Source: Aceticella autotrophica (GTDB lineage Bacteria; Bacillota; Thermoanaerobacteria; Thermoanaerobacterales; Thermoanaerobacteraceae). From it: 64,000 nucleotides of DNA. The position numbers and the translations under genes were made by a program. The notes beneath the pieces are model-generated. The model searched no databases. It saw only the letters and a list, made by a program, of their open reading frames with translations, and was not told the origin of the DNA. Location: assembly GCF_017357865.1 (NCBI RefSeq), contig NZ_CP060096.1:1909001-1973000 (forward strand), read 5' to 3'. Shown one piece after another: positions 2,899 to 5,791 of the stretch; within the stretch, counting starts at the first letter, position 1; every line of letters begins with the position of its first letter.

Positions 2899-5085
2899 TT
2901 ATTGTGTCTGGATAACTGGCTGATACAAATCCATAGTAACTGTGTTGGCATTTGGATCATAGTTGACTTTGGCACCGAATGCTACTTGTGCTATCCACCT
3001 AAATGGCAACATTGTACGGTCATTTTTTAATGTTGCAGGTACATCCATTGTAATAGTAGTACCATTAATTGTCATAACATTGCTGCCTATAGTCATTTTT
3101 ACTATCTTATCCCCTTTAATAAGTGTAACTGTTCCTGTTGCATCATCATAAAGAATATTATCATCTGATACACCAAGAGCCTTAGCAACATACCTAACCG
3201 GCAAGTATGTTCTGTCATTTTCTACATACGGTGCTACGTCCATTGTCTGAGTTGTTCCATTTAATGTATAAGTTGTAGAACCGATTGTAAATACTACATT
3301 TGTTTTTTCCTCTGAAGGAGCAGGTGTTACAACTGTAGCTATTGTTGCTCTGGCAGCTATAGTATCATTTGGGAAATATTTGCCTGTACCGCCATTTTCT
3401 ACTAAAGCATTTCCTGTAATTCCTACAGAAACATTACCTTCAGGTACTGTACGATCTACAGTAAGTTTAATATTTGAAATCTTTATCGTACTTGCTTTTG
3501 TGCTTGAACCTTTAACTTTAATTTGTGGATAACCCGAATCATAAGTTACTATAGAATCAAGCACAAGGTCTCCGTCTGTAACCTCAAATTTTGGAGTGTC
3601 AGCGAAACTTACACCTTGTGGCAATTTAAGTTTTATATACCCTGTTTGATTATTGTTATCCGTTGATTTAATCTGTCCTGCCATTGTTTCTGTAAGTGTT
3701 ACATCACCGGCTGGCTGGCTCTTAAGTCCTATAATTACTGCTGGCTTACTAGAAGCAGTTGCTGTTACTGACTTTACTGTCGCAACCGTAGCTGTACCGT
3801 TAGCGCCTGCCGAACCGCTTACAGTTAAAGCAATATCCCCAGTATAACCGGCTTTAACCGTTATTTTACCACCGCTAAATACTAAATGAGGCGCATTATT
3901 CCCGCTTGAAGAGGTAGTAACTTTTGCCATAAGCGTCTTAATGCCGTATACATCACTTTCTACCGGTGTAAAAGAACTAATCTGAAAGCCACAATCTGTT
4001 GAAAGATTAGTGTCAAACTGCGGATAATTACCTGCAATCCATCTTGCGTTGTCAGGTAATGTTAAAACAATTGTACGACCTTCTACTAAGGTCCCAGGCA
4101 ATGCCTCATCAATTGCAAATTTTCCTATCTCTTGGTCAACTTTGCCTGCATCAATGGTCTTAGTTTCTACGCTGTTTACAGTAACCGTATAATCACCATA
4201 CGTACCAACTTTTAAACCATCTTTTAAAGTACTTGGTGAAACTGTGCTTTTACCGCCAACTGTAGCTACTACATCACCTTTTTTAGCCATGGAAATATCA
4301 ACCTTAATAGGCGCATATAAATCAGCTAAGGTACTAATTGATGAAGCTTGAGCGCATTTGATTTGCAAAGTACGCCCTGAATCCAATGTAATTGGATTTA
4401 CTGTAAGATCTGCATTTCCAGTTAATATATCGATATTTGCGTTGGTAACATCCCATGTAAAGCCTAAAGGCAATGTCAATTTTACGCTGTCGTCAGCCTT
4501 TTTAAGACTTCCAGCTAATGATTCGTTAATGCGAATATGTGCTCTTGTCCCTGAATCACCAAATGCCGGTGTGTCAACAGCCGTTAAATTAACCTGTGGT
4601 GTTGTTGCAACACCTGCAACAACATCACCATTCATCAACTGACCAAAAGCTTTGGAGAATTGTACTTTTATATTTCCGGCTGCGCAATTTTGTGCATTTA
4701 CATTTACACTAAATTGTACATTTGCTTCTGTACCAGCATTTAAAGTTAAAGTTACTTTATATACATTTGAAGCAACTTGAGTTACTTGTTGTGAATACAC
4801 ATCTCCAGATACGCTCAAAGAATTGATGTCAAGGAGCGACCCCTCTGAATCTACAACCTGAACAAGAGCTGAAGATTGTTGATTTGTTAATACAGGTTTA
4901 ATATCTGCATTTATTGTTGCAAGGTTTTGATTTTGAGCTGCGCTACTATTTGCATTAAATGTCGGTATTGCAGTAATCGCTGAATAAGTCGTGCCAGCCA
5001 TTGCAACAGATGGCATAGCACCTATCATACCTAACATCATGGCTAATACCATAAGCATAGAAAGCCATTTTTTACTTGATTTCAT
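2899..5085 (-). CDS. large secreted surface protein with CuAO-N-like C-terminal repeats
   Basis: A 728-residue secreted protein. The signal peptide (KKWLSMLMVLAMMLGMIGAM, cleavage near AMAG) starts at the ATG at 5085, preceded by AAAGGAG; the upstream in-frame ATG at 5103 overlaps that ribosome site and is rejected. Residues about 150-570 contain about three similar blocks with the pattern E.LPG.L..G..I.L.LP.G, probably beta-sandwich repeats. The last 125 residues hold two copies of the copper amine oxidase N-domain-like fold (NDRTYLPVRYVAKALG and NDRTMLPFRWIAQ), which in clostridia is a wall- or surface-associated module, not an oxidase. No SLH domain or sortase motif is seen. Low-charge, Thr/Val-rich composition fits an abundant cell-surface or S-layer-like protein. 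Exact role unknown. Confidence 0.8.
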   Translation of the reverse strand: MKSSKKWLSMLMVLAMMLGMIGAMPSVAMAGTTYSAITAIPTFNANSSAAQNQNLATINADIKPVLTNQQSSALVQVVDSEGSLLDINSLSVSGDVYSQQVTQVASNVYKVTLTLNAGTEANVQFSVNVNAQNCAAGNIKVQFSKAFGQLMNGDVVAGVATTPQVNLTAVDTPAFGDSGTRAHIRINESLAGSLKKADDSVKLTLPLGFTWDVTNANIDILTGNADLTVNPITLDSGRTLQIKCAQASSISTLADLYAPIKVDISMAKKGDVVATVGGKSTVSPSTLKDGLKVGTYGDYTVTVNSVETKTIDAGKVDQEIGKFAIDEALPGTLVEGRTIVLTLPDNARWIAGNYPQFDTNLSTDCGFQISSFTPVESDVYGIKTLMAKVTTSSSGNNAPHLVFSGGKITVKAGYTGDIALTVSGSAGANGTATVATVKSVTATASSKPAVIIGLKSQPAGDVTLTETMAGQIKSTDNNNQTGYIKLKLPQGVSFADTPKFEVTDGDLVLDSIVTYDSGYPQIKVKGSSTKASTIKISNIKLTVDRTVPEGNVSVGITGNALVENGGTGKYFPNDTIAARATIATVVTPAPSEEKTNVVFTIGSTTYTLNGTTQTMDVAPYVENDRTYLPVRYVAKALGVSDDNILYDDATGTVTLIKGDKIVKMTIGSNVMTINGTTITMDVPATLKNDRTMLPFRWIAQVAFGAKVNYDPNANTVTMDLYQPVIQTQ

Positions 5086-5503
5086 CCAAATTTCTCCTTT
5101 CATAAAGAAAATTTATTTTGCTTGAAGGTAATTCTTAACCTTAAGTAAGATTGAATGCAAATATCGCATTCGGGGCTTTCGCCCTATGTTCATACCGGAT
5201 CATGCTTTTTTGTCCCGTTTTCCTTTCAACATGCTTTAACATATGCATACTTACTTTACAGTATTGATTTAATTGCTTACGCATATGTTTTTCTCTGGAA
5301 ACCGGGCTTACATCCCCCCTCTTACAAATCTAAGGTTGTGAATATCTCTATTCCTCCTTTAAATATCGGAGTATTTCCAGCAATTCTCATTGCTGTTCTA
5401 TCTGAATTTCAGGAGTTAAATGTCTCCCAAAAATTCATTCTGTTATTACCATCCACAAAAAGCCTACCCACTTTTTGCAAAGGGTTATTTTAACATCAAC
5501 TTT
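5086..5503 (-). ncRNA. 418-nt structured leader RNA (candidate regulatory element)
   Basis: Between a consensus promoter and the surface protein start lies a long untranslated leader that folds by eye into a chain of strong hairpins. Examples: CAGCAAT-GAGA-ATTGCTG at 5378-5395; GAATA-GAGA-TATTC at 5340-5353; GGGC-GAAA-GCCC at 5173-5184; and a long-range CCCGGTTTCC / GGAAAACGGG pairing (5297-5306 with 5214-5223) that encloses AACATATGC / GCATATGTT (5281-5289 with 5238-5246). Three of the loops are GNRA tetraloops. It does not match any riboswitch consensus I can recall. It could be an mRNA stabiliser, a riboswitch-like regulator, or an embedded mobile RNA element. Confidence 0.6.
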
Positions 5504-5509
5504 TCCTCT

Positions 5510-5538
5510 ATTATAACAGGTATTTTTACCAAGGTCAA
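5510..5538 (-). promoter_or_regulatory. sigma-A promoter of surface protein leader
   Basis: Minus-strand -35 TTGACC (5533-5538), 17-base spacer and -10 TATAAT (5510-5515), predicting a start near 5503. This near-perfect promoter fits strong expression. The remaining 250 bases up to the deacetylase gene are very AT-rich and show no other clear feature. Confidence 0.8.
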
Positions 5539-5791
5539 TAAATGTTACCAATTTGTAATAAAACTGTAACACTATATTAACATTCATTGATATATTTATT
5601 TGTCCTATGAAATTTATATTCTTATAAAATTATGTTATTCATAATTTTTTGGACAATTTCCCTTATTTATCTATTTTTTATTATAAATTATATATCGGAT
5701 AATGTGAAGCTTTATTTAATGGCGTTATGAATTTTTTATAAAATATGTTAAAATCATATTTGAAATCAATAAATGATTAAGGGTGTAGAAC

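Follow-up and report, generated by a model that had tools for sequence, protein, structure and literature searches.

A long structured leader of a surface-protein gene in Aceticella autotrophica appears to contain the end of an SD-seeking IS1182-like transposon

Introduction

In a 64,000-nucleotide stretch of the Aceticella autotrophica chromosome (contig NZ_CP060096.1; hereafter the window), the gene for a surface protein is preceded by a hairpin-rich leader several hundred nucleotides long. Why should such a gene carry so much folded RNA ahead of its start codon, and where did that RNA come from? The original prediction, made from the sequence, described a consensus promoter driving a leader far longer than needed, with at least eight helices, three GNRA loops and a long-range closing stem, belonging to no known riboswitch or leader family; mRNA stabilisation, ligand sensing and a parasitic structured RNA were offered as possible roles. 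The analysis presented here favours, with a probability that we place at roughly 0.6, an mRNA-stabilising S-layer-type leader that captured the end of a transposon seeking Shine-Dalgarno (SD) motifs. The transposon clade, with its use of AGGAGG, is the larger discovery and the surprising part when compared with the leader itself.

Results

The promoter and its gene are of an S-layer type. The promoter is the consensus one that had been described, TTGACC-17-TATAAT with an extended −10 (Table 1), and the block TTACAGTTTTATTACAAATTGGTAAC that lies upstream of it is also found before the S-layer-type gene in related genomes (G001–G004, G006–G009, G011, G012, G014–G016, G018 and G019). The promoter block is kept in both sequence and spacing in about 15 related genomes, across Thermoanaerobacter and Thermoanaerobacterium, and TTACAGTTTTATTACAAATTGGTAAC together with the −35 occurs once per genome across the family, with the exception of G019, in which the block is present as two tandem copies (L192; G019:C8:30097 and 30258, 161 bp apart). 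This conservation supports placing the start of transcription near 5503 and assigning the encoded protein an S-layer-type role. Within the block, direct TTACA repeats lie 11 bp, or one helical turn, apart, as they do in the homologues; this arrangement resembles a response-regulator site, presumably a match to a WalR- or PhoP-type box, and cell-wall control of the S-layer-type gene through these repeats is possible. The protein matches Pfam PF07833 (5e-45) and has an ortholog of 44% identity in G011. Since its gene stands on the S-layer-type promoter of the family, which agrees with the abundant kind of surface protein that had been proposed, it is probably the major S-layer-type protein of the species. 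In most genomes, however, this promoter leads into an SLH S-layer-type gene through a leader of 100–138 nt, whereas in the window, G011, G015 and G019 it leads into a gene for a CuAO_N1-domain surface protein through one of 239–418 nt; the window leader is indeed far longer than its SLH-type counterparts need.

Table 1. Features of the leader locus, in window coordinates
Feature	Position	Strand	Evidence or remarks
Conserved block TTACAGTTTTATTACAAATTGGTAAC upstream of promoter	5544..5569	minus	Also 5′ of S-layer-type gene in relatives
Promoter TTGACC-17-TATAAT, extended −10	5510..5538	minus	Sequence scan; conserved in relatives
Structured leader (5′ UTR), 418 nt	5086..5503	minus	MFE z −4.1, repeat −4.0; start inferred from conserved promoter
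Leader nt 1–63, window-specific 5′ hairpin region	5441..5503	minus	z −2.2
Leader nt 64–135, relic right end of IS1182-like SD-targeting element; hairpins P1 and P2	5369..5440	minus	Covariance-model match, IS homology, z −5.6 alone, covariation, wobble asymmetry
10-nt spacer CGATATTTAA, relic end to AGGAGG; IS insertion signature	5359..5368	minus	Spacing exactly 10 in 26/38 distinct IS contexts
AGGAGG, IS-insertion target motif; strong SD-like site	5353..5358	minus	Anti-SD pairing −12.0 kcal/mol
SD-like G-tract AAGAGGGGGG, then ATGTAAG	5314..5323	minus	Anti-SD −11.9 kcal/mol; 238 nt before ATG
Leader nt 136–418, 3′ structured part; CCCGG..CGGG closing stem and GGGC-GAAA-GCCC hairpin	5086..5368	minus	z −2.6; MFE
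SD of surface gene, GAAAGGAGAA, in part inside hairpin	5092..5101	minus	Anti-SD −12.7 kcal/mol; mean unpaired 0.33
Surface protein, 728 aa from ATG at 5085	2899..5085	minus	Signal peptide-like N-terminus; C-terminal Cu_amine_oxidN1 region

The predicted fold of the full leader has an MFE of −104.8 kcal/mol, compared with a mean of −82.2 kcal/mol for dinucleotide shuffles, of which none of 100 was as low; it includes ten hairpin loops, four of them GNRA (GAGA, GAGA, GUAA and GAAA), and the long-range closing stem. In these respects, as in the position of the leader directly before the start codon, the original prediction holds, and likewise an Rfam covariance-model scan of the leader returned no family at gathering score, with weak matches at E ≤ 10 at chance level. 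No family was found in the leaders of the relatives either, and among loci that carry the repeated module described below, the scan showed only glmS, Moco and CRISPR repeats nearby. Searches for a phage or viral origin of the leader sequence gave no matches. The leader is single-copy in its own genome except for nt 58–152, and nt 164–418 are carried by no other gene in 61 related genomes. It is here that the view of the leader as a single RNA gives way: it is well supported as a composite, an S-layer-type mRNA leader with a transposon end as one structured piece. What had been suspected of being a parasitic structured RNA is, in its nt 64–135, the end of a multi-copy mobile DNA, and that end is part of the mRNA leader rather than a free RNA.

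The evidence for a transposon end begins with the copies elsewhere. A search of the same genome with the leader revealed six further places resembling nt 58–152, and a covariance-model scan found eight copies of the module, seven strong and one weaker at 44 bits. All eight lie just 5′ of an SD motif, before five SLH-like surface genes, modA and an ABC ATPase gene and within the window leader; the adjacent SD is the gene's own in every case but the last. In related genomes the module occurs in many copies, often at contig ends, a sign of a longer repeat. When copies from complete genomes are aligned, it proves to be the terminal 83 bp of an element 1974 bp long, whose ends are inverted (left, GAGTGATTTCGG; right, as complement, GARTATTTTCGG) and which is flanked by short duplications of the target. 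Leader nt 64–135 score 73.4 bits against the module covariance model (E 2.6e-13) and are 74% identical by blastn to IS nt 1891–1974, so that they resemble the terminal 83 bp in sequence and in fold; moreover, the relic terminates in ATACTC, followed by CGATATTTAA and AGGAGG, the signature seen in IS contexts. By homology, then, nt 64–135 are foreign to the leader and derive from an IS1182-like transposon, of which they form the right end. Beside none of the copies in this genome is there an IS body or left end, the transposase relatives encoded there are only 36% identical, and none of the copies is a complete mobile IS with left end, transposase gene and target duplication. On their inner side the solo copies have a sharp common boundary at GAATGAA, and inspection by eye revealed no clear MITE-type target duplications around them. 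Thus, the body of the transposon has been lost, and its end is retained in the window leader and in seven other 5′ UTRs of the genome.

Several of these loci are worth describing in their own right. The ABC-transporter ATPase copy, a more diverged one (L138; G000:C1:1973840-1973920), lies about 840 bp beyond the right edge of the window, just 5′ of an SD. Two of the SLH genes with a transposon-end leader (L003, at about 357 kb, and L026, at about 214 kb, of G000:C1) directly adjoin CRISPR arrays with CRISPR-DR2 repeats, with shared sequence lying between array end and SLH gene. At modA (L005/L143; G000:C1:1702370), a Moco riboswitch is followed directly by the module and then by the SD, so that riboswitch and mobile 5′ UTR element stand one after the other. 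A reading of the GAAUUGCUGGAAA stretch as part of a group I intron or IStron was dropped because this stretch is hairpin 2 of the transposon end and no intron core was found.

Intact copies of the element are found in Thermoanaerobacterium, where the covariance-model scan gave up to 14 module copies per genome; the same scan of Thermoanaerobacter and other families of the class gave marginal matches or none. A pattern scan of public genomes added Thermoanaerobacterium butyriciformans, T. saccharolyticum and a Thermoanaerobacterium MAG as carriers, and one intact copy resides on the T. saccharolyticum plasmid pMU3262. The element codes for one protein of 503 aa, transcribed in the direction away from the right end, which had no match in Pfam and a partial match to NCBIfam NF033551 (IS1182 transposase; E 1e-17), at 64 bits against a curated cut-off of 270. 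As this lies below the family cut-off, we file the element as IS1182-like only. It shares with IS1182-family insertion sequences a DDE-type transposase (by the same partial match), inverted ends and a single-gene organisation, but differs from them in that it inserts in strictly one orientation, 4–5 bp before AGGAGG, and carries a hairpin module for the mRNA strand at its right end. A scan for an outward promoter inside the right end of the main IS found none; a relative in Carboxydocella has a TATAAT-like box in its right end. One intact copy (L030/L117; G003:C1:400275) sits immediately 5′ of a glmS ribozyme leader.

Insertion of the element appears to follow a defined rule. At least five of the six positions of AGGAGG are matched within 25 nt of the end in 33 of 38 distinct IS contexts, as compared with 6.8% of random sites, with the distance from end to motif being exactly 10 nt in 26 of them. 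Where target duplications can be read they are 5–7 bp long. With the register assigned automatically, 10 of 14 have the cut 5 bp ahead of the motif; the other four involve G-runs or weak motifs, which make the register ambiguous. Relatives in G011 and G006, with transposases about 38% identical, have duplications of 9–14 bp, and in all 11 cases examined there the cut lies exactly 4 bp ahead of the motif; a Carboxydocella plasmid element (44%) follows the same rule, reading duplication ATTCTTCA, 5 bp, AAGAGGTG, then the start codon. A transposase survey of 398 genomes found a close transposase in 22; elements in G302, G115, G150, G051 and G273, from other Bacillota, also follow the rule, and one in G120 does so more weakly. 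No AGGAGG targeting is seen for the ordinary IS1182-like elements of G015 and of the Aceticella genome, and no SD target was seen for an Alicyclobacillus relative (32%). From these contexts we conclude that insertion of the IS1182-like element has a single orientation and leaves the right end about 10 bp 5′ of AGGAGG motifs. Because some of the targets are not true ribosome sites, among them an apparent tRNA gene 5′ end (L216) and a terminator-like inverted repeat (L126), the rule would concern the DNA sequence as such. No report of SD-targeting insertion sequences was found in the literature searched, which covered few subscription journals and lay outside ISfinder, and on that basis the clade is provisionally new.

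The right end also encodes a folded RNA. In 30 distinct copies, 97% of the cells in the two helices are paired, a figure that leans high since the alignment was made to fit the structure, and some of the sequences had gone into building it. Six pairs have changes on both sides (0 of 500 shuffles), and sliding the helix partner by one column lowers the pairing to 54–60%, with the peak at zero slide. Double changes can be seen in the raw alignment, for example GGGGG/TCTCC to AAGAG/CTCTT in the modA copy and to AAAGG/CCTTT in an SLH copy. Furthermore, G-U combinations outnumber A-C combinations by 76 to 11 in the helix cells, so the helices are continuous mainly in RNA that reads on into the downstream gene. 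The sequences thus indicate a two-hairpin RNA module held on the mRNA strand through compensatory change; for the rest of the leader, where covariation had likewise been proposed as a check, it could not be shown. A palindrome at the left end of the element, GGAAACTAATTTCC, corresponds to helix 2, which may therefore also serve the transposase; helix 1 belongs to the right end only. Part of the covariation in the module may reflect selection on the transposon rather than on the window leader.

Outside nt 64–135 the leader appears to be fast-changing. The four long leaders (window, G011, G015 and G019) have no whole-length alignment and no conserved aptamer core, and what they have in common is an SD-like G-tract and some hairpins. 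The G-tract AAGAGGGGGG is common to the G011 leader and has similar counterparts in G019 and G015; the window and G011 leaders both hold AAGAGGGGGGATG and a closing C/G stem. A whole-leader alignment with G011, in which only the promoter block and the G-tract aligned, was set aside as mostly noise, and the G011 leader is weakly more structured than its shuffles (z −1.5). Each of the four long leaders has one or more internal SD-like sites of roughly the strength of the true SD, compared with none of the five short leaders tested; taken leader by leader such sites are moderately unusual, being equalled in 4–8 of 60 shuffles, and they are partly paired in the predicted fold. In the window leader there are two strong SD-like sites far 5′ of the start codon, one of them being AGGAGG, about 270–276 nt ahead of the ATG, for which no start codon in use is apparent; lying beside the relic, this AGGAGG may never have been used by the present gene. 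The G015 (L185) and G019 (L192) leaders have two mutually exclusive hairpins on a repeated GACTACAG, kept across genera, which are possibly an RNA switch.

Discussion

The most likely role of the leader, by analogy, would be to stabilise an abundant surface-layer mRNA. In the cry3A mRNA, a STAB-SD acts as a 5′ stabiliser (PMC4113751), and given this precedent, protection from 5′-to-3′ decay is the simplest function for the leader. As conservation of its sequence suggests, the family-wide S-layer-type promoter would make the leader RNA; hairpins and the internal SD-like sites (AGGAGG at 5358-5353 and AAGAGGGGGG at 5323-5314), neither of them with an obvious usable start codon, would shield the mRNA from attack at its 5′ end, and a 30S subunit at such a site could block a 5′-to-3′ exonuclease, as at the cry3A STAB-SD. 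An IS1182-like end would have inserted 5′ of AGGAGG and brought in the two-hairpin module, its body then being lost while the end stayed in the leader. The likeness to cry3A lies in a strong SD-like sequence far 5′ of the start codon (PMC4113751). In contrast to cry3A, the window leader has more hairpins and two internal SD-like sites, one of which was brought in, or else marked, by a transposon insertion. Compared with the S-layer leaders of Thermoanaerobacter and Thermoanaerobacterium, it shares the promoter block and a surface-protein gene but is 418 nt long rather than the 100–138 nt of the SLH type, and its gene encodes a CuAO_N1-domain protein rather than an SLH one.

It is just as important to consider what else the leader might be. 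A native short S-layer-type leader could have been swollen by transposon debris and drift and be tolerated, with no RNA function, under a strong promoter; the transposon end is there, most of the leader sequence is not alignable with relatives, and the main SLH genes manage on their short leaders. We nonetheless find this doubtful, because the 346 nt that are left without nt 64–135 still fold better than all of 200 shuffles (z −3.3), which counts against debris, and, in addition, three further genomes have long structured leaders under this promoter and ahead of a CuAO-type gene, and hairpins are common to G015 and G019 across genera. Control of translation is improbable: the SD would be held in a hairpin (mean unpaired probability 0.33), and long-range pairing or alternative hairpins such as the competing ones of G015 and G019 might open it according to temperature or growth state, yet no competing hairpins turned up in the window or in G011, the hairpin around the SD is weak and rich in A/U, and there is no conserved sensor.

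The remaining alternatives are both unlikely, and strongly so. A new class of ligand-sensing riboswitch in nt 136–418 would suit the GNRA loops, the closing stem around an inner helix and the G-tract in common with G011, but the four leaders on the same promoter lack a conserved core, so that nothing aptamer-like is common to those of the three relatives, and the idea of ligand sensing finds no support on this point; nor is there Rfam similarity, any other gene with nt 164–418 in the 61 related genomes, or a metabolic gene context. A free parasitic or regulatory RNA, ending inside the region and separate from the mRNA, could make use of the terminator-like hairpin at 5171-5153; however, the T-tract of this hairpin is weak (AATCTTACTT), terminator-like sites are near their chance number (5 against 3.0), and the region is single-copy in the genome except for nt 58–152. 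The reading as a stabilising leader with a captured transposon end is the one that we retain.

As to the element itself, we lean towards a broader proposal: that a Bacillota clade of IS1182-like elements targets SD DNA (AGGAGG), cutting 4–5 bp before it and in one orientation, with a gene-facing end that forms hairpins on the mRNA strand, such that an insertion becomes a 5′ UTR instead of a knock-out. In this genome, eight ends that have lost their bodies would now serve in the 5′ UTRs of surface-protein, modA and ABC-transporter genes, one of them in the S-layer-type leader of the window. Like IStrons and other insertion-softening elements, this would be a mobile element that spares the host gene via RNA structure; unlike IStrons, it has no intron ribozyme and lands 5′ of the ribosome site, and the sparing of the gene is inferred. 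If true, a transposon uses the ribosome-binding motif as a landing mark, under a defined target rule of a cut 4–5 bp before AGGAGG, and is abundant, mostly at gene starts and before many kinds of genes. It could move from gene start to gene start, leaving coding sequence intact, while giving host genes ready-made leader hairpins, and the origin and change of the leaders of strongly expressed surface genes would become testable.

Most members of the SD-seeking clade (L235–L244, L214–L225 and L131) also hold an SD-like G-run in their right end (GGGGGTGA, GGAGGTAA, GAGGGGAAA). These G-runs sit in or beside the 5′ arm of a hairpin, and they may be a mimic of the target or a stabiliser.
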